A stretch of 64,000 nucleotides of DNA, from contig NZ_OUNR01000003.1 in assembly GCF_900403705.1 (NCBI RefSeq), forward strand, positions 1-64,000, in the 5' to 3' direction. Numbering within the stretch: the stretch's first letter is position 1; each line of letters begins with the position of its first letter. This DNA comes from Nitrospira lenta. Its GTDB lineage: Bacteria > Nitrospirota > Nitrospiria > Nitrospirales > Nitrospiraceae. The translations under genes were made by a program, and so were the position numbers. Positions 12,777 to 47,029 of this stretch are shown here, in pieces. The notes beneath the pieces are model-generated. The model searched no databases. It was given only the letters and a program-made list of their open reading frames with translations, and had not been told where the DNA came from.

Positions 12777-14339
12777 CTACGCCGCGGGCGAAATATTCGT
12801 TTCTTTACCCGCCAGCACTTTCCTGGCGCCTCCGCCGCGGACGCGGTGCATTTTCTCTCGCGTGTGATACGGCAACAGGCCTTCGAGCACTGCCGGAAGC
12901 TTGTCGCAGGGTACATCTTCCATAATCTTGAGGGCCAGCTTCGGATCGGGCCCCGAGCGGCCGCCGATGTAAATATCGACGGCCTCGACGACCTTTCCGT
13001 CGATTTTTGCTTTTTTCCCCAATAACCCCACATCGGCGACCAAGTGATTGCCGCAGCTCGCGGGACAGCCGGACCAGTGCATGGTAATCGGCTTGAGCGA
13101 AGCGCCTAGCCGTCCTTCAAGCGCCTTGGCCACCGCAACTGCCCGCCCTTTGCTTTCGATCACCGCCAGATTGCAGTAGTCACTGCCGACACAACTGACC
13201 AGGCCTTTATAGAGGGCGGAAGGATTGTAGGCGAATTGTTTCAAGAGCGGCTCATCCGCCAGATCTCCGACGGTTCGGTCGCTGATATTGGGGATGATCA
13301 ATGCTTGACTCGGGGTAATCCTGATCTCCCCGTTGCCATACTTCTCCGCCAAGCTTAGGATTTTCACGAGGTCCGCCGCTTTGACCCGCCCGACCAACAC
13401 CTTCAGTCCCGCATAATTCATCCCCTGTTGCCGTTGACGGAAAATCCCGACATGGTCCTGCTCACCCGCCTTCCGGGCATCTATTCCGGCAGACGCGAGT
13501 CGTTTTCCCACACGGGCTTCCACTTCGGCACGGAATCGGGCTTCGCCCCATTCCTCGATCAGGAACGCGAGACGGGCTTGAGTGCGGCTCTCCCTCGGCC
13601 CATGATCGCGGTAAATTCCCAGAATCGCGCGGCAGACATCCAGCGCCTCGGAGGGATTGACGAACACGTCCAGCGGCGTGGCGATCCGGTACCCGCCCGA
13701 TCCCAGCTTGCCACCTACGAGCACATTGAATCCCACGCAGCGATCATGTCCCAAATCGTAGTGCGCCGGTACGAGCGCCAGATCCTGCGTTTCCATATGC
13801 ACGCAGTTATGCGGGCAGCCGGTCACCGCGACATTCAGTTTGCGCGGCAAATTAGAGTAGGCCGGCTTGCCGAGAATCTCCTCGTTGATCGCCCGCACCA
13901 GCGCCATGGTCTCGACAACCTCATCCGGGTTGAGGCCGGAAATGGCACAGGTCATAACGTTGCGAACATTGTCCATCCCGGTTTGCATGGAGGTCAGCCC
14001 GACCCCGTCCATCTTGGCAAAGACCGCCGGCACGTCTTCGATCTTGATGTTCCGGAGCTGCACTTGTTGTCTGGTCGTCAAGTCCAAGACGCCATTGCCA
14101 TACGTCGAGGCAATCTCCGCCAGAGCCCGCAATTGATACGATGTGGTCTGACCTCCGGGAATCCGCACCCGCACCATGAAGAACCCAGGCGTCGGGTTGC
14201 GCAAAAAGAGGCCGCACCATTTGAGCCGCTGGATATCGGCCTCAGGAATCGCTTCCCACCCAGTCGTCGCGTAGTGAGCGATCATCTCCCGCACCGTTAA
14301 TCCATCGCGCTCCGTCTTGATCGCCTCGATCTTGTTCAT
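12777..14339 (-). CDS. nirA: Ferredoxin-type assimilatory nitrite reductase
   Basis: Reduces nitrite to ammonium for assimilation with siroheme and a [4Fe-4S] cluster. It has 520 residues, typical of NirA. Cluster ligands are C383, C389 (CVGSDYC) and C425, C429 (CPASC), the C-x5-C...C-x3-C pattern. Two ferredoxin-like half-domains each carry the TRQQVQLRNI / ITPSQALIIPN strand. The ATG at 14339 is preceded by GAGGAGG; a longer frame to 14426 overlaps the upstream gene. It lies downstream of FNT channel and cyanase genes, so nitrite uptake, cyanate-derived ammonium and nitrite reduction are coexpressed. Confidence 0.95.
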   Translation of the reverse strand: MNKIEAIKTERDGLTVREMIAHYATTGWEAIPEADIQRLKWCGLFLRNPTPGFFMVRVRIPGGQTTSYQLRALAEIASTYGNGVLDLTTRQQVQLRNIKIEDVPAVFAKMDGVGLTSMQTGMDNVRNVMTCAISGLNPDEVVETMALVRAINEEILGKPAYSNLPRKLNVAVTGCPHNCVHMETQDLALVPAHYDLGHDRCVGFNVLVGGKLGSGGYRIATPLDVFVNPSEALDVCRAILGIYRDHGPRESRTQARLAFLIEEWGEARFRAEVEARVGKRLASAGIDARKAGEQDHVGIFRQRQQGMNYAGLKVLVGRVKAADLVKILSLAEKYGNGEIRITPSQALIIPNISDRTVGDLADEPLLKQFAYNPSALYKGLVSCVGSDYCNLAVIESKGRAVAVAKALEGRLGASLKPITMHWSGCPASCGNHLVADVGLLGKKAKIDGKVVEAVDIYIGGRSGPDPKLALKIMEDVPCDKLPAVLEGLLPYHTREKMHRVRGGGARKVLAGKETNISPAA

Positions 14340-14356
14340 CCCGTCCTCCTCACGGC

Positions 14357-14578
14357 CTAGTGAATTAACTCTACGCGGTATCCGGTGACCTCTCGTACCA
14401 ATCGCACGATCCCCGCCCGGCTCCATCGATCGACGGCGAGAAACACCTGCGCCTCACAATCGCTCCCCAGCACGCCGGCAATATCGTCGAGCCTCAGCGT
14501 GCGTCGGGCGCGGAGTAGATCGCCGAGGGTCTGTTCCAGTCCCACGTGTGTCCGATCGCCGGTTCGTTCCATGTTCAT
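14357..14578 (-). CDS. 73-residue winged-helix-like small protein
   Basis: Small protein between cynS and nirA, from an ATG with GGAGG upstream. The segment LRLDDIAGVLGSDCEAQVFLAVDRWSRAGIVRLV..TGYRVEL looks like a winged helix-turn-helix with a beta wing, but it is too short to say more. The nirA start follows 18 bp after its stop, so translation is probably coupled. It could be a small regulator or partner of the operon's enzymes. No family name can be given. Confidence 0.6.
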   Translation of the reverse strand: MNMERTGDRTHVGLEQTLGDLLRARRTLRLDDIAGVLGSDCEAQVFLAVDRWSRAGIVRLVREVTGYRVELIH

Positions 14579-14639: not shown

Positions 14640-15080
14640 CTAGAAGGTCTTATATTCAAGCCACTTCCCGTTCAGCGTAATCTTGCAGCGGGCTTCGCCC
14701 TGACTGCCGGTCACCTTTTCCATATCAAGCGTGAAGTCGATCGCGCTCATGATGCCGTCACCAAACATCTCGTTCGCTTGCTCACGCATCGAATCTCCAT
14801 AGACTCCGATGATTTCCAGCAGTCGGTACTTAAAAGGATCGGTCGCATTCGGGAAATCGGCCCGCACCGGAAACTTGCTGAGCGACGCGGTCAGATCGGC
14901 ATCCAGGCCGATGAGATCACCGATCTTCTTGGCTTCATCGGCCGTGAACTTATGATTCCCGTTCAACGCCGCCGAGACAAACGTCGGATTCTTCCCCACC
15001 GTTTTGGCGATGTCGGCAATCGTCACCTTCTTGGCCAACCGCTTCTCCTTGATCGCCTTTCTGATTTCATCCTTCGACAT
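14640..15080 (-). CDS. cynS: Cyanate hydratase (cyanase)
   Basis: Converts cyanate and bicarbonate to ammonia and carbon dioxide. It has 146 residues, close to the usual 147-156. The N-terminal helical DNA-binding-like domain is followed by the catalytic domain with R86, E89 and S112, in the same spacing as the Arg-Glu-Ser triad of the E. coli enzyme (R96, E99, S122). The ATG at 15080 lies 9 bases after AAGGAG; two in-frame upstream ATGs are less likely. The AT-rich stretch before it is unlike its surroundings. Operon with the FNT channel and nirA. Confidence 0.95.
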   Translation of the reverse strand: MSKDEIRKAIKEKRLAKKVTIADIAKTVGKNPTFVSAALNGNHKFTADEAKKIGDLIGLDADLTASLSKFPVRADFPNATDPFKYRLLEIIGVYGDSMREQANEMFGDGIMSAIDFTLDMEKVTGSQGEARCKITLNGKWLEYKTF

Positions 15081-15141
15081 GGTCACCATCTCCTTTTTAA
15101 AATTAAAAAGTTTACGCCCCAAGAATCCTGACTCTCCCGCT

Positions 15142-15972
15142 CTACGACTGCGCCGCCACCGACACGGCCGGCACCGGAACGGCGACCGGCTCCGCGGCTT
15201 CGACCCGATAGGGACTCACAAGCCAATAGAGTCCTCCGACGAACAGTCCGCCGCCGACTACATTGCCCAGCACGACAAAAAACTGGTTATACCAAAAACC
15301 CGCCCAGGTCACGGCAGCCTCATGCGGCATGAACAGCGCCATGCCCAGGAACGATTGATTGGCAATGCTGTGCTCAAACCCAATCCCGATAAAAGCGAAC
15401 AGACACCAGAAAATCAACATGATCTTCGCCGCGTCACTGCTGGTCCGCCCCGCCGTCCAGACCGCCAGACAGATGAGCCAGTTACACAGGATGCCGCGCA
15501 CAAACAACTCCCAGGGTCCCAGCGACATCTTCACACCGGCCACGCGTTGAATCATCTCAGCCGCCGGCCCCTTGGCAAACACGCCCGATTCCACTACCAG
15601 CCACGCCAGCGCCAGCGAACCCGCCAGATTCCCCAGCCATGCCCAGAAATTGATCCGAAACACTTGCCCCCAGGTGACGCTGCCCGAAAGCCCGCCGATC
15701 ACCCCGATCATGTTGTTGCCGGTGAATAGCTCTGAGCCGGCGAAGATCACCAGCGTCAACGCAATCCCGAACGAGGCGCCCATGACGAGTTTCACCGCCG
15801 GCGATCCGGCGGCAGCCAGCGGCGCGCCCAGGCTAACGATCAGCGCGATCCCGAATCCCAGATAGATGCCGGCCATGGCCGACAGAACGAGATAGCCCAT
15901 CGGCGATGAATCGAGAAACCCGAGCTTCTTCTTCGCGACTCCCGCAATCCGTTCATGATCTGCATGATGCAT
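15142..15972 (-). CDS. Formate/nitrite transporter family channel, likely nitrite uptake
   Basis: A 276-residue FNT-family membrane protein with six predicted helices. Family signs are FAGSELFTGNN (about residue 78) and the second-half motif GIGFEHSIANQ (about 196). It probably carries nitrite (NirC-like), since nirA is in the same operon; formate is less likely here. The ATG at 15972 has GGAGGG upstream. It is the first gene after two tandem ANTAR-type leaders, so its expression should depend on antitermination. Confidence 0.9.
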   Translation of the reverse strand: MHHADHERIAGVAKKKLGFLDSSPMGYLVLSAMAGIYLGFGIALIVSLGAPLAAAGSPAVKLVMGASFGIALTLVIFAGSELFTGNNMIGVIGGLSGSVTWGQVFRINFWAWLGNLAGSLALAWLVVESGVFAKGPAAEMIQRVAGVKMSLGPWELFVRGILCNWLICLAVWTAGRTSSDAAKIMLIFWCLFAFIGIGFEHSIANQSFLGMALFMPHEAAVTWAGFWYNQFFVVLGNVVGGGLFVGGLYWLVSPYRVEAAEPVAVPVPAVSVAAQS

Positions 15973-16013
15973 GGTGCCCTCCAGGTTAAGCCGGCCGCCG
16001 CCTGTCCGAAAAA

Positions 16014-16052
16014 CACAAAAGGCGTCCCCCTCCCTCACGGGAGAAGGACGCC
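16014..16052 (-). terminator. Attenuator of leader 2
   Basis: GGCGTCC pairs with GGACGCC around a GC-rich inner stem, followed by TTTTGTG. It overlaps P2 of leader 2 and ends about 40 bases before the FNT start codon. Confidence 0.8.
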
Positions 16053-16118
16053 TTTGTCCACCTCACGACAGGTCTGCCGCGACCTGCCTCTATACGCAAG
16101 GCTTCGACGAAGAAGCCT
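16021..16118 (-). promoter_or_regulatory. ANTAR-type leader 2, in tandem, before the FNT gene
   Basis: P2 is GGAC-AAAGGC-GTCC (16046-16059), with the same loop as leader 1. Two upstream hairpins with six-base loops could be P1: CAGGTC-GCGGCA-GACCTG (16069-16086) and AGGCTTC-TTCGTC-GAAGCCT (16099-16118). Both have G at loop position 4 but lack A at position 1. No separate promoter is seen, so RNA must pass leader 1 first. Confidence 0.7.
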
Positions 16119-16135
16119 CACTGGCTCAGAAATTA

Positions 16136-16174
16136 AAAAGGCGTCCGCCACTCTTTGCAGAATGACGGACGCCT
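16136..16174 (-). terminator. Attenuator of leader 1
   Basis: GGCGTCCG and CGGACGCC pair to form a strong stem followed by TTTTT on the minus strand. The stem overlaps P2, as expected for an antitermination-controlled terminator. Confidence 0.85.
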
Positions 16175-16222
16175 TTGTCCGTTGCCTTATGTCGAAAACT
16201 TTGACCGAGGCGCCTTTGCCTC
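16136..16222 (-). promoter_or_regulatory. ANTAR-type leader 1 of the FNT-cynS-nirA operon (P1, P2)
   Basis: P1 is GAGGC-AAAGGC-GCCTC (16207-16222) and P2 is ACGGAC-AAAGGC-GTCCGT (16165-16182). Both loops are six bases with A at position 1 and G at position 4, the pattern bound by ANTAR proteins. A 24-base linker separates them. The 3' arm of P2 is also the 5' arm of the terminator, so P2 and the terminator exclude each other. Confidence 0.85.
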
Positions 16223-16263
16223 AATCAACTCAAGGCCGATTTGTATCACGCCCCAGGTCCACC

Positions 16264-16269
16264 CGTCAA
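16264..16269 (-). promoter_or_regulatory. Promoter of the FNT-cynS-nirA operon
   Basis: On the minus strand -35 TTGACG (16264-16269), an 18-base spacer, and -10 TACAAA (16240-16245) preceded by TG (extended -10). P1 of the first leader begins 17 bases after the -10 box. The spacer and layout repeat at the other leaders. The -10 box is at 16240-16245. Confidence 0.7.
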
Positions 16270-16300: not shown

Positions 16301-17710
16301 CTAGATGTCGTAGTACAAGTAGAACTCGTACGGATGCGGACGCAACCGCATCGTATCGACTTCCTTCGTGCGCTTGTACCCGATCCAGGCCTCGATCAGA
16401 TCCTCCGTAAAGACTCCGCCCTTGAGCAAGAATTGATGATCCTTCTCGAGGTTGTTGAGCGCCTCATCCAGGCTGCCTGGCATGGTCTTGATCTTGGCCG
16501 CTTCCTTCGCCTCAAGATCGTAGAGATCCTTCTCGGCCGGTTCGCCCGGATTGATCTTGTTCTCGATGCCGTCCAATCCCGCCATCAACATGGCTGCAAA
16601 CGCCAGATACGGGTTGGCGCCGGGATCCGGGAACCGCACTTCGATCCGCTTCGCCTTGGGGCTCGGTGAATACATCGGGATGCGGATACCCGCCGACCGG
16701 TTCCGGCTGGAGTAGGCCAACAACACCGGCGCTTCAAATCCTGGGGTCAACCGCTTGTACGAATTCGTCGTCGGGTTCGTGAACGCCGCCAACGCCGGCG
16801 CGTGCTTGAGGATGCCGCCGATGTAGTGGAGACACATCTGCGACACGCCCGCGTATTCCTTGCCCGCGAACAACGGCTTGCCGTCTTTCCAGATGCTCTG
16901 GTGCGTGTGCATGCCCGAACCGTTGTCGCCGAAAATCGGCTTCGGCATGAAGGTCGCCGTTTTGCCGTGACGACGCGCGACGTTCTTGACGATGTACTTG
17001 TACATCATCATTTTGTCGGCCGTCTTGACCAGCGAATCGAAGCGGATGTCGATTTCCGCCTGACCGGCCGTGGCCACTTCGTGATGATGCTTTTCAACTG
17101 AGATGCCGGCCTTCTCCATCTCCAGAATCATCTCAGTCCGGATATCCTGCTGTGTGTCGGTTGGCGCCACCGGGAAATAGCCTTCCTTGGAGCGAATCTT
17201 TCCGCCCAAGTTGACGCCCTCTTGCCCCATGTTCCAGACGCCTTCTTCGGAATCGATGAAGTAGTAACCGCTGTGATTCGTCTGGTCATAACGGGCTTGA
17301 TCGAAAATGAAGAACTCGGCTTCGGGCCCCCAGTAAGACGTGTCGCCGATCTTGGTGCTCTGGAGGTACTTCTCCGCCTTCTGCGCGATGAAGCGGGGGT
17401 CGCGATTGTAGGTCTCGCGGGTGATCGGATCGACGACGTTGCCGATCAGACTCAGCGTCGGGACGGCGCAGAACGGGTCCATGCAGGCGGTCGAAGGATC
17501 GGGCACCACCAACATGTCGCTGTTGTTGATCGCCTTCCAGCCGCGGATCGACGAACCATCGAGGCCTGACCCATCCTTGAACAGGTCTTCCGTCAACTCC
17601 CCGAGCGGAATGGTAAAATGCTGCCACGTCCCGATCAGGTCCACGAACTTCAGATCGACTACTTGCACCTTGTTCTTCTTCGCATACTCCAACACTTCAC
17701 GAACGTTCAT
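16301..17710 (-). CDS. glnA: Glutamine synthetase type I
   Basis: Makes glutamine from glutamate and ammonium. It is 469 residues, the usual GSI length. Tyr397 lies in KDLYDL, exactly at the adenylylation position of GSI-beta enzymes, so activity is probably controlled by GlnE (not in the window) together with GlnB and GlnD next door. Active-site segments [19 protein letters not shown] and NRSAGIRIP are present. The ATG is preceded by AAGGAGG. It follows glnD by 53 bp and is likely the last gene of the porin-amt-gln operon. Confidence 0.97.
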
Positions 17711-25180: not shown

Positions 25181-25231
25181 AAAAAAAAGTCCTCAGGTCT
25201 CTTTCGGTGAAAGAGGCCGGAGGACGTCATT
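25181..25231 (-). terminator. Attenuator before the porin-amt operon
   Basis: GTCCTC...GAGGAC encloses a second stem CTCTTTC/GAAAGAG and is followed by eight T on the minus strand. It ends 113 bases before the porin ATG. Confidence 0.88.
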
Positions 25232-25282
25232 GTCCTTGCCAGGCACGTAAAGCGGCCGTTAGAGAAACGCCATTGTCCCTCT
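25181..25282 (-). promoter_or_regulatory. ANTAR-type leader of the porin-amt-gln operon
   Basis: P1 is an 8-bp stem AGAGGGAC/GTTTCTCT with loop AATGGC (25261-25282). P2 is AGGAC-AATGAC-GTCCT (25221-25236). Both loops have A at 1 and G at 4. The linker is 24 bases, the same as in leader 1 of the FNT operon. P2 and the terminator share GTCCTC. Confidence 0.88.
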
Positions 25283-33062: not shown

Positions 33063-34790
33063 TCAAAACAGGAAATACCGCTGCGCCATGGGCAACACCG
33101 CGAGCGGATCACAGGTGAGGATTTGCCCGTCGGCCTTCACGACATACGTTTCCGGATCGACTTCAATATGCGGCAGCGCATCGTTCAGCTTCATATCCCG
33201 CTTGCCGATCCCGCGGCATTTCTTCACGGTGGCCACGCGCTTCTGCAAGCCAAGTTTCGTATGGACCTCTTGCTCCATGGCTGACTTCGAGAGAAAGGTC
33301 AGACTCGTGGCAAAGGGCGCCCGGCCAAAGCTGCCGAACATCGGCCTGGTCAAGACAGGCTGGGGCGTCGGAATCGATGCGTTCGGATCGCCCATCGCCG
33401 CCGACATCGGGAACCCGCCCTTCAACACGATGTCAGGCTTGACGCCGAAGAAGGCCGGTTTCCACAACACGAGGTCGGCGAGTTTCCCGACTTCAATCGA
33501 TCCGACTTCATGCGCGATTCCGTGCGCAATCGCGGGATTGATCGTGTACTTGGCCACATACCGCCGCACGCGGAAATTATCGTTGCTGCCGGACAGCTTC
33601 TCCGCCGCCGTCTGCGACAGATGCCCGCGTTGCACTTTCATCTTATGCGCCGTCTGCCAGGTGCGGATGATCACTTCGCCCACCCGCCCCATCGCCTGCG
33701 AATCGGAGGACATGATGCTGATCGCACCCATGTCGTGCAGAATATCTTCGGCGGCAATCGTTTCGCGGCGGATGCGCGACTCCGCGAAGGCAATATCCTC
33801 GGGCACGCGCGGATTCAAATGGTGACAGACCATGAGCATGTCGAGATGCTCGTCCATCGTATTGACGGTGAAGGGCATCGTCGGGTTGGTGGACGACGGC
33901 AGGACATTGGCCTCGCCGCATACTTTGATGATATCCGGCGCATGCCCTCCGCCCGCTCCTTCCGTGTGGAAGGAATGGATGGTGCGCCCCTTGAACGCCT
34001 TGATGGTGTCTTCGACAAACCCGGCTTCATTCAACGTGTCGGTATGGATCGCCACCTGCACGTCATAGTCTTCCGCGACATCGAGACAGGTCGAAATCGC
34101 CGCCGGTGTCGTCCCCCAATCTTCGTGCAGCTTGAGGCCGATCGCGCCGGCTTCGATCTGTTCCCGCAATCCCTCCGGCAACGACGAATTGCCTTTCCCT
34201 AAAAATCCGAGATTGACCGGAAACCCGTCAGCCGCTTCCAGCATGCGATGCAGATTCCACGCGCCCGGCGTACAGGTCGTCGCATTCGTCCCCGTCGCGG
34301 GACCGGTCCCTCCACCGATCAACGTCGTCAGTCCGTTCGCAATCGCTTCCGTAATGATTTGCGGACAGATGAAATGGATGTGCGTGTCGATCCCCCCCGC
34401 CGTGATGATCTTTCCCTCGGCGGACAGGACTTCAGTCCCCGGTCCGATTTCCATGCCCTTCGTGACTCCGTCCATGAGATCGGGATTGCCCGCCTTGCCG
34501 ATGCCGACAATACGGCCATCGCGAATCCCGATGTCGGCCTTCACGATCCCCCACCAATCGATAATGATCGCATTGGTGATGACGAGATCGAGCGCGCCTT
34601 TGGCGCGAGTGGCGGAAGGCGATTGTCCCATGCCGTCGCGGATGACTTTGCCTCCGCCGAATTTGGCTTCTTCGCCTGGCACCGTCAGGTCGCGGGTGAT
34701 TTCGATCAGGAGCTCCGTATCCGCCAGACGCACGCGATCGCCGGCTGTCGGCCCGTAGAGATCGTTGTATTGGCGTCGGGTGAGTTTCAT
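33063..34790 (-). CDS. ureC: Urease alpha (catalytic) subunit
   Basis: Hydrolyses urea to ammonia and carbamate at a di-nickel site. It has 575 residues, close to the usual 567-573. Metal ligands are visible: H137 and H139 (DTHIHF), the carbamylated K220 (GLKLHEDWG), H249 and H275, and the flexible-flap catalytic His in VCHHLNP (323/324). The start overlaps the ureB stop by 4 bp. All key residues are present, so it should be active once nickel is loaded. Confidence 0.98.
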
Positions 34791-44598: not shown

Positions 44599-45870
44599 TT
44601 ACGGCCTGGCTCCGCTGCCTGCCCGCTCTTCAATCGAACTGGCCAATAAAATCGCCTCAGCGATCTCCCGCATCGACTTCCTCAAATCCATACTCTGACG
44701 CTGGATTAGCTTGAACGCTTCATCCTCGGAGAGCTTTTTCGATCGCATCAAGCAGCCTTTCGCCCGTTCGAGCAATTTCCGCACGGCCAGCGCTTCCTGC
44801 ATTTCGAATGATTTCTCTAATAACGTCGTATGCTCAATGGAGATCGCCGCTTGATTGGCGATGGCTTGCATGAGCCGCACTTCTTCCGACGTGAAGGTAC
44901 GGGGAACCGACGTGTAACTATTGATCACGCCCACGCACTTTTCCCGCATCATCATCGGCACCGAAAGCAAGGAGCAGAGCCCTTCCTTCGCCGCCAAGTC
45001 CGGATACATATAGTCCCGCTCTTTCGTCACCTCGGGCACAATAATCGACCGGCGCCCCTGGACGGCCCTGCCGCTGATGCTCTGTCCGACCTTGAGATTG
45101 GGCTTTCGCCGGTACTCTTCACTCAAGCTTTGTGTCGCCACAATTCGCAGTTCTCCGCTGGCTTCGTCCAGCAGCATGATCGAACAGATTTTCGACCCCA
45201 ACATCTGCGCGGTCATGGTCACGATGAGCTGCAACACATCCTCGGTGATCCGGTTCGAGGCAACCGTCTCGGAGACTTGCGAGAGCGTCTCCAACTGCAG
45301 CGCCTTCCGGCGCATCTGGTCGTAGAGTCGCGCATTCTCGATCGCCCCGCCGACCTGATTGGCAATGGTCGTGAGCAGCGCAAGTTCATCCTCTCGATAC
45401 CTGCGCGAGCGTTTATGCTGCACATTGATAACGCCGCTGACTACTTTCTTGGCAAGAATCGGCACGGATACAAACGCTTGATAGCGATCTTCCGGAAGGT
45501 TGTTGAAAAACTTGAACCGAGGATCCTCACTGGCGTTGCTGGGAATCACCACACGAGTCCGCTCGCGGGCCACCCAGCCGGTGATGCCTTCGCCTAATCC
45601 GATCGTAATGCGCCCAATCAATCTGGGGTGCGGATTCTTTGATGCCCGCAGGATGAGCTCATCCCGTCCATCGGACAGCAGATATAGCAGACAGGCGTCC
45701 GCTTTCGTCACCTCGACCACGACATCCACAATGTGCCGAAGCACGGACTCAAGATCGAGGGTGTTACTAATCGATTCACTGATCCGATGCAAGACATCTA
45801 CTTCACGAATTTTTTCCCGCAATGCTCGCTCTAGGTGTGCCGCTGAAAGCTTTTTTGATTCCATACCCAT
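44599..45870 (-). CDS. GAF-GAF-ANTAR transcription antiterminator
   Basis: A 423-residue RNA-binding antiterminator candidate. Two tandem GAF domains (about 30-165 and 185-345) are followed by a C-terminal ANTAR domain (about 355-410) with LLERAKGCLMRSKKLSEDEAFKLIQRQSM, matching the family's ERAKGxLM...SEDEAFxLL pattern. ANTAR domains bind pairs of hexaloop hairpins and prevent terminator formation (NasR, AmiR, EutV families). GAF domains should sense a ligand; which one is unknown. ATG 45870 is chosen because it lies 22 bp after the aroB stop; an ATG two codons later is possible. The window contains five matching RNA leaders. Confidence 0.93.
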   Translation of the reverse strand: MGMESKKLSAAHLERALREKIREVDVLHRISESISNTLDLESVLRHIVDVVVEVTKADACLLYLLSDGRDELILRASKNPHPRLIGRITIGLGEGITGWVARERTRVVIPSNASEDPRFKFFNNLPEDRYQAFVSVPILAKKVVSGVINVQHKRSRRYREDELALLTTIANQVGGAIENARLYDQMRRKALQLETLSQVSETVASNRITEDVLQLIVTMTAQMLGSKICSIMLLDEASGELRIVATQSLSEEYRRKPNLKVGQSISGRAVQGRRSIIVPEVTKERDYMYPDLAAKEGLCSLLSVPMMMREKCVGVINSYTSVPRTFTSEEVRLMQAIANQAAISIEHTTLLEKSFEMQEALAVRKLLERAKGCLMRSKKLSEDEAFKLIQRQSMDLRKSMREIAEAILLASSIEERAGSGARP

Positions 45871-45892
45871 AGATCCCACGAGAGAACGTCTC

Positions 45893-47029
45893 TCACTGCC
45901 CCCGTTTCGCTGTGTACCGTGATCGTCCGCTTCCCCCAACCGAAACCGTTTTAAACCACTCCGCAAACGTGCCTCGCTCAATCGGGACAATCCGAACTCG
46001 ACCGATCGCGTTCGGCCACACGCCTACGACTTTCCCTTGCGAGACCTTCTTGTCATGCTGCATGGCCGACCACACCTTCTCCAGAGAAGGACTAGTCAGA
46101 CGATCGGACAAACCGGCAGCACGGACGACCGACCTGATTCGATCAACCGTCTTGGAATTGCAATATCCCTGATGCCTGGCTAAATCGGCTTCAAGCACCA
46201 GTCCAATGCCGACAGCCTCTCCATGAATCAACGATTGATAGCCGCCTAAGGCCTCCAGCGCGTGTCCGATTGTATGCCCATAATTCAAAATTCTTCGACG
46301 ATCAGACTCCTGCTCATCCGCCGCCACCACCTGAGCCTTAATCTCACAGGAGCGCTTCACAATCTGCATGACAGCCCGAGGCTCAAGCTTCAAAATGGCT
46401 GGCATCGTTCGTTCGAGATATACAAAGAACCTCTTGTCGGCAATGATGCCGTACTTAATCACTTCGGCCAGACCTGCGATCCATTCCCGCTTCGGAAGTG
46501 TGCCCAGAAACTTCGTATCAATCCATACGGCCTTGGGCTGATGAAATGCTCCGATAAGATTCTTTCCCAACCGATGATCGACGCCGGTTTTCCCGCCGAC
46601 ACTCGAATCTACTTGCGCGACCAGTGTAGTCGGCACTTGGACGAACGGAATCCCTCGCTGGTAAATCGCGGCAGCAAACCCTGTCATATCTCCGACAACC
46701 CCACCCCCCAAGGCCATCAGCAACGACTTCCGTTCGAAGCGCTCCCTCGCCAGGACATCGAGAATCTTCTCAACGGTCGCAAGCGTCTTATTCTTTTCCC
46801 CTGGTGGCAATACGATTGAGACCGGATGGAGGCCGGCTTGTTTACATTGCGAGACCACTGCGGAGAGGTAGTGCCGAGCGACATGGCGATCTGTCACAAT
46901 ACCGACACGTTCCGTCGAGGCAAGCGACTGAAGGCGCACCCCAAGCTCGTCGATCAAGCCTGGTTTGATGACAATGTCGTAGCTTCGCGACTTAAGCGAC
47001 ACAGACACTCGCTGTTCTATTTTCCCCAT
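45893..47029 (-). CDS. aroB: 3-dehydroquinate synthase
   Basis: Second step of the shikimate pathway. It has 378 residues from the ATG at 47029, with GAGGAGTG upstream; a GTG four codons earlier overlaps that site and is unlikely. NAD-binding and active-site segments are seen: LPPGEKNKT, LMALGGGVVGDMTGFAAAIYQRG, VPTTLVAQVDSSVGGKTGVDH, and the metal ligand NYGHTIGHALE. It is coupled to the ANTAR gene downstream, an unusual partner. Confidence 0.96.
   Translation of the reverse strand: MGKIEQRVSVSLKSRSYDIVIKPGLIDELGVRLQSLASTERVGIVTDRHVARHYLSAVVSQCKQAGLHPVSIVLPPGEKNKTLATVEKILDVLARERFERKSLLMALGGGVVGDMTGFAAAIYQRGIPFVQVPTTLVAQVDSSVGGKTGVDHRLGKNLIGAFHQPKAVWIDTKFLGTLPKREWIAGLAEVIKYGIIADKRFFVYLERTMPAILKLEPRAVMQIVKRSCEIKAQVVAADEQESDRRRILNYGHTIGHALEALGGYQSLIHGEAVGIGLVLEADLARHQGYCNSKTVDRIRSVVRAAGLSDRLTSPSLEKVWSAMQHDKKVSQGKVVGVWPNAIGRVRIVPIERGTFAEWFKTVSVGGSGRSRYTAKRGQ

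Follow-up and report, generated by a model that had tools for sequence, protein, structure and literature searches.

The window analyzed here, a stretch of 64,000 nucleotides from Nitrospira lenta, carries on its minus strand the gene glnA and, downstream of it, an operon that begins with a gene coding for a formate/nitrite transporter (FNT). The spacer between the glnA stop (16301) and the FNT start (15972) harbors a promoter and then two P2/terminator units, termed here unit 1 and unit 2, with the hairpins of the latter denoted by a prime. This arrangement agrees with the original prediction of two ANTAR-type attenuators in series before FNT-cynS-nirA, since the two units are both real and conserved and go together with an ANTAR protein. 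The features of the locus are as follows.

16301-17710, minus strand: glnA, directly upstream of the leader (PF00120, 6.7e-140)
16240-16269, minus strand: sigma70-type promoter, read directly from the sequence, with TTGACG at 16269-16264, a spacing of 16 to 18 nt and the -10-like GATACAAA at about 16247-16240
16201-16228, minus strand: P1 hairpin of unit 1, TTGATTGAGGC-AAAGGC-GCCTCGGTCAA, with an 11-bp stem and a hexaloop with A1 and G4
16165-16182, minus strand: P2 hairpin of unit 1, ACGGAC-AAAGGC-GTCCGT
16127-16176, minus strand: terminator T1, with its stem at 16176-16137 and the tail TTAATTTCTG, mutually exclusive with P2
16096-16121, minus strand: hairpin A, candidate P1 of unit 2, with the hexaloop TTCGTC (loop 16111-16106; U1, G4)
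16067-16088, minus strand: hairpin B, second candidate P1 of unit 2, with the hexaloop GCGGCA (loop 16080-16075; G1, G4)
16046-16059, minus strand: P2' hairpin of unit 2, GGAC-AAAGGC-GTCC, possibly reaching over 16041-16064 if a U-U mismatch is allowed
16008-16055, minus strand: terminator T2, with its stem at 16055-16018 and the tail TGTGTTTTTC, mutually exclusive with P2'
15142-15972, minus strand: FNT formate/nitrite transporter gene, first of the putatively controlled operon (PF01226, 1.4e-65)
14640-15122, minus strand: cynS cyanate lyase ORF (PF02560, 1.3e-29)
12777-14426, minus strand: nirA-type ferredoxin nitrite reductase ORF (PF01077, 6.9e-54)
25221-25279, minus strand: second putative regulon member, a single canonical P1-P2 unit with loops AATGGC and AATGAC and a terminator that has eight T in a row
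44599-45990, minus strand: gene of a GAF-GAF-ANTAR protein, the presumed regulator (Pfam domain search)

The promoter lies where it had been proposed, and a TTGAC promoter-like site occupies the corresponding place in 45 of 51 tandem leaders. The loop AAAGGC attributed to both P2/terminator units was likewise recovered on the minus strand, within a hairpin core, GGAC-AAAGGC-GTCC, that is identical in P2 and P2'. The spacing of the units requires correction: the two loop starts are 121 nt apart in the window and not about 110, a value that is typical of the relatives. P2 and T1 exclude each other because the 5' half of T1 begins within the P2 loop. Both terminators are strong when compared with shuffled sequences, with 18 pairs and -31.6 kcal/mol for T1 (z -7.8) and 17 pairs and -34 kcal/mol for T2 (z -6.6). 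Hairpins A and B, both stable, are placed between T1 and P2', the latter candidate sitting 25 nt 5' of the P2' loop. Unit 1 has the elements of a canonical dual-hexaloop ANTAR target, namely A1 and G4 in both loops, a P2 that overlaps an intrinsic terminator and a co-occurring ANTAR gene.

The tandem is not due to chance. Three copies of the string GGACAANGRCGTCC are found in the window, one in each leader unit and one at 25222-25235, within the single unit, against 0.01 copies expected from shuffles. With E values of 3e-13 and 2.6e-8, two full units in the window were the only ones that a P1-P2 covariance model retrieved genome-wide, the next best match having an E value of 0.29. Unit 1 served to build this model and is matched by construction, which does not apply to the absence of units elsewhere or to their distribution in relatives. 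Unit 2 was scored by the same model through its P2' half only (E 0.5) and is therefore not a standard dual-hexaloop unit.

A genome-wide Pfam search identified a single ANTAR protein, the one encoded inside the window. Its ANTAR domain keeps R142, K143, K149, E160, M172 and R175 of the EutV residues described as RNA contacts (PMC8934654), with Y164 replaced by F, when aligned with a position offset of 2 that we assigned. The single unit at 25221-25279 precedes genes for a porin and two ammonium transporters (porin-amt-amt). The leader outlines a putative regulon of nitrogen assimilation under the single ANTAR protein of Nitrospira.

Distribution of the tandem leader and the ANTAR gene

A pattern search of 175 Nitrospiraceae genomes located the tandem in 52 of them, spread over eight genera and always as one per genome, and the reversed pattern yielded zero matches in the same set. 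A record named Ca. Nitrospira defluvii is among the carriers, and the named records closest to them belong to Nitrospira. Of 50 FNT genes inspected for their upstream region, 36 had tandem leaders, 12 had single units and two had no unit, and a few far relatives possess the same FNT but no such units (L026, L080 and most of L131-L160). All these genome counts are non-independent and the counts of changes on a tree given below are the safer numbers, the tree itself being a quick one with several weak forks.

The RNA unit goes with the ANTAR gene in the host genus, where it is present in 14 of 14 ANTAR-positive genomes versus 2 of 65 ANTAR-negative ones (79 genomes; Fisher 9.6e-14; kinship of the genomes inflates this value, although it points clearly in one direction). 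Of the two exceptions, G062 (leader L003) has a complete tandem leader and no detected ANTAR gene in an assembly that is 87% complete.

Several variants of this organization were noted in passing. Some genomes, such as G065, carry a tandem leader before a set of ABC transporter genes and cynS, and a further single unit before FNT; in the corresponding sequence (L180, 2081-2137 and the region upstream of FNT) three ANTAR units lie in one string of genes, in the order tandem, ABC transporter genes, cynS, single unit and FNT. By eye, other Nitrospirales (L113, L122, L125, L126 and L130) also appear to have a two-unit leader upstream of FNT, the first P2 of which displays a 7-nt loop (AATTGGC, AATAGGC or AATGGAC) instead of a hexaloop. 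Single P2/terminator leaders are found upstream of FNT in L111, L112 and L120, preceded by a GG-N10-GC site that resembles a sigma54 promoter, and P1-like hairpins with the stem GGGTC/GACCC or similar occur upstream of FNT in L117, L119, L127 and L111, where the loops AGGGTA, GAAGGA and GTCGCT have A or G at position 1 and always G at position 4. Finally, L009, L014 and L016 contain between T2 and FNT an insert of about 160 bases of similar sequence, found partly near L183 and L187 as well, which resembles a dispersed repeat.

Loop constraints in unit 2

In the relatives, the loops of unit 1 are invariant for A1, A2, G4 and C6, a statement in which the P1 counts are set by a search pattern that fixed A1, so that only the counts for P2 and P2', obtained from a search fixing nothing but the GGAC/GTCC stem, are without bias. 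The P2' hairpin of unit 2, a hexaloop with A1 and G4 that overlaps the intrinsic terminator T2, obeys the rule seen in P1 and P2. Traced on a tree built from 46 FNT genes, its loop underwent no change at positions 1, 2, 4 and 6, and changed 12 times at position 3 and three times at position 5. Because the bases of the P2' loop also form part of the T2 stem, pairing could in principle conserve them. Nevertheless, on the tree the T2 base that faces position 4 has alternated between C and U eight times, and all 36 leaders have G at position 4, including 15 in which A would pair better, so that stem pairing alone does not account for the conservation. These results support the view that P2' behaves as an ANTAR target under an ANTAR-type constraint.

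The P1 of unit 2 is less regular. The original prediction had pointed to two candidates, with loops TTCGTC and GCGGCA, that lack A1; both exist, and across the clade A1 is mostly absent while the hexaloop and G4 are kept. Of 36 leaders, 34 present hairpin A with a hexaloop, and G4 is kept in 34 of 35; position 4 changed once on the tree and the remaining loop positions 4 to 12 times, position 1 being G in 26 leaders, U in six and A in three. Hairpin B has a conserved helix with covariation, which supports the pairing, and a hexaloop with G4 in the genus of the window and a few others (L193, L196, L197). In other large genera its place is taken by a helix whose loop varies from 3 to 9 nt, and, with loop length changing 17 times on the tree, hairpin B was rejected as a general P1' outside the genus of the window. 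Within the window, both hairpins qualify as P1' by their hexaloop and G4. A hexaloop-G4 hairpin is also present in most of 16 further tandem leaders, sometimes at the place of hairpin B (assessed partly by eye). Overall, 44 of 51 leaders contain such a hairpin between the units, compared with a mean of 2.5 in shuffles, and the other seven have none at the threshold used. A1 accompanies G4 in the inter-unit hairpin of only 7 of 51 leaders, so that in unit 2 the A1 rule of P1 does not hold. Hence, a putative P1' exists as a hexaloop with G4, mostly without A1.

The distance between the two hairpins of a unit also bears on function, as the linkers of EutV targets span 5 to 12 nt, and lengthening them by 20 nt abolishes antitermination. 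Hairpin B of the window is separated from P2' by some 9 nt, about within this range, and hairpin A by a longer linker that measures about 40 nt in most genera; the linker of unit 1, of about 18 to 28 nt, exceeds the EutV range too. In the EutV structure G4, which stacks on Tyr164, is the sole loop base contacted, and no specific contact is seen for A1 (PMC8934654). According to EutV genetics, on the other hand, induction falls when either loop carries A1U or G4A (PMC3369931), and P1' without A1 may therefore not work. We infer that P1' would be a weakened but working recruiting hairpin, which is consistent with both the structure and the genetics of EutV.

Serial attenuation and its alternatives

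Taken together, these features argue for the glnA-FNT spacer being a leader with two serial ANTAR-controlled attenuators, both of which would have to be disarmed, unit 2 being probably the stricter lock; on the sequence evidence, we assign this reading a probability of about 0.72. In the absence of active ANTAR protein, polymerase arriving from the leader promoter or by read-through from glnA would halt at T1, and transcripts passing T1 would halt at T2. The active GAF-GAF-ANTAR protein would bind and stabilize P1/P2, abolishing T1, and then P1'/P2', abolishing T2, so that transcription would reach FNT and the genes for nitrite uptake and reduction would be on only when both events succeed. 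Since P1' keeps the hexaloop and G4 mostly without A1, it would probably recruit the protein less well, making unit 2 the stricter lock. That repression by the two terminators in series would multiply, as originally envisaged, is plausible. A more specific proposal is that, across Nitrospira, the second lock with its recruiting hexaloop devoid of A1 gives two terminators with different thresholds for one protein (or a hand-over of dimers) and hence a steep response; we regard this as a tentative idea with slightly less than even odds.

Among the alternatives, unit 2 might be a plain backup terminator against read-through from glnA, with P2' a relic of duplication on which no protein acts. The tandem is found in 50 of the 60 units located directly after glnA versus 2 of the 90 other units, so that T2 stands where transcription comes in from upstream, and unit 2, devoid of a canonical P1, is a poor match to the P1-P2 model. 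This placement suggests that the second lock guards against glnA read-through, but a single origin at the glnA locus explains it equally well, and because of such a possible single origin the 50 cases may not be independent. In addition, the P2' loop retains G4 and its other fixed positions despite the eight changes of the paired base and the many changes at positions 3 and 5. Expression of the operon, moreover, requires relief of T2 unless this terminator is leaky, because the only visible promoter is located before T1 and the distance from T2 to the FNT start is only about 45 nt; a strong T2 that is never relieved would silence the operon. We thus consider an unregulated backup terminator unlikely.

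Control by the ANTAR protein could also be exerted differently, with dimers recruited at the strong P1/P2 of unit 1 remaining near the polymerase and passing to P2', in which case unit 2 would require no private recruiting hairpin and would work only downstream of unit 1. The EutV model, in which the dimer shifts from the recruiting to the antiterminator hairpin (PMC8934654), offers a precedent for such a transfer, and a canonical P1 is always present in unit 1 and mostly absent from unit 2. Yet P2 and P2' are 105 to 130 nt apart, which is difficult to reconcile with the linker limit of EutV, and a hexaloop-G4 hairpin is retained between the units nonetheless, making this transfer a rather improbable one. 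It is even harder to credit unit 2 as a distinct attenuator that responds to another RNA-binding protein or signal and places the operon under the control of two signals. The P1' loop does differ systematically from that of P1 (mostly G1), but the P2' loop follows exactly the rule of P1 and P2, and the genome encodes a single ANTAR protein, no other candidate regulator having been found; we deem this highly improbable. Serial control of both terminators by one ANTAR protein remains, therefore, our preferred reading.

Comparison with known attenuators

The claim that a tandem use of ANTAR targets is undescribed stands in part. A search of the open-access literature returned no paper on two serial ANTAR terminators in one leader and no description of ANTAR regulation in Nitrospira; several attenuators per operon had, on the other hand, been predicted before. 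The papers searched gave no account of a conserved pair of units sharing a leader, the second of them asymmetric; serial ANTAR terminators within an operon are already known (eut) or predicted (Desulfotomaculum acetoxidans). Like the EutV attenuators of the Enterococcus faecalis eut genes, the Nitrospira leader combines hexaloop hairpins, a P2 overlapping an intrinsic terminator and an ANTAR protein. The four E. faecalis terminators, however, belong to units that precede eutP, eutG, eutS and eutA and that all carry A1 and G4 in their two loops, whereas Nitrospira has two units in one leader and a second P1 without A1. For D. acetoxidans, at least 13 ANTAR attenuators have been predicted in six transcription units (Ramesh et al. 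2012; PMC3369931). The resemblance to this predicted regulon lies in nitrogen genes and in attenuators outnumbering transcription units (13 vs 6), a comparison by counts. In the bgl operon of E. coli, the antiterminator BglG acts on the terminators t1 and t2, which flank the first gene. The likeness there is that of one antiterminator for two terminators in one operon; the RNA motif and the protein are different, and so is the position of the terminators.

Nitrospira are major nitrifiers, and unit 2 constitutes a natural experiment on the reason for two hexaloops in ANTAR targets. With the EutV structure pointing to G4 as the only contacted base and the genetics indicating that A1 matters, Nitrospira retains G4 but has, for the most part, lost A1 from one of the four hairpins, which makes the need for A1 and for a private recruiting hairpin directly testable.

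A relaxed Rfam search matched RF00625 P11 to unit 1 (8e-6, 33.7 bits) and to unit 2 (3.8e-4, 27.2 bits). The P2 core of P11, GGACAAAGGCGUCC, is matched exactly by unit 1 and almost exactly by unit 2, and the terminator arms are nearly identical. Both scores are below the Rfam gathering threshold of 70 bits, at which the leader has no match, and we therefore do not claim membership. We take P11 to be the NasT-controlled nirBD leader of Pseudomonas (NalA). The Pseudomonas nirBD leader is controlled by NasT, with a sigma54 promoter and NasS-NasT sensing (PMC12830290). It shares with the Nitrospira leader an operon for assimilatory nitrite reductase and the presence of A1 and G4 in the hexaloops of both P1 and P2, but it is modelled as one unit, in contrast to the two units, the sigma70-type promoter and the GAF-GAF-ANTAR protein found here. 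The sole Rfam match above the gathering score in the window is 5_ureB_sRNA, at 34349-34641 on the plus strand (101.8 bits).
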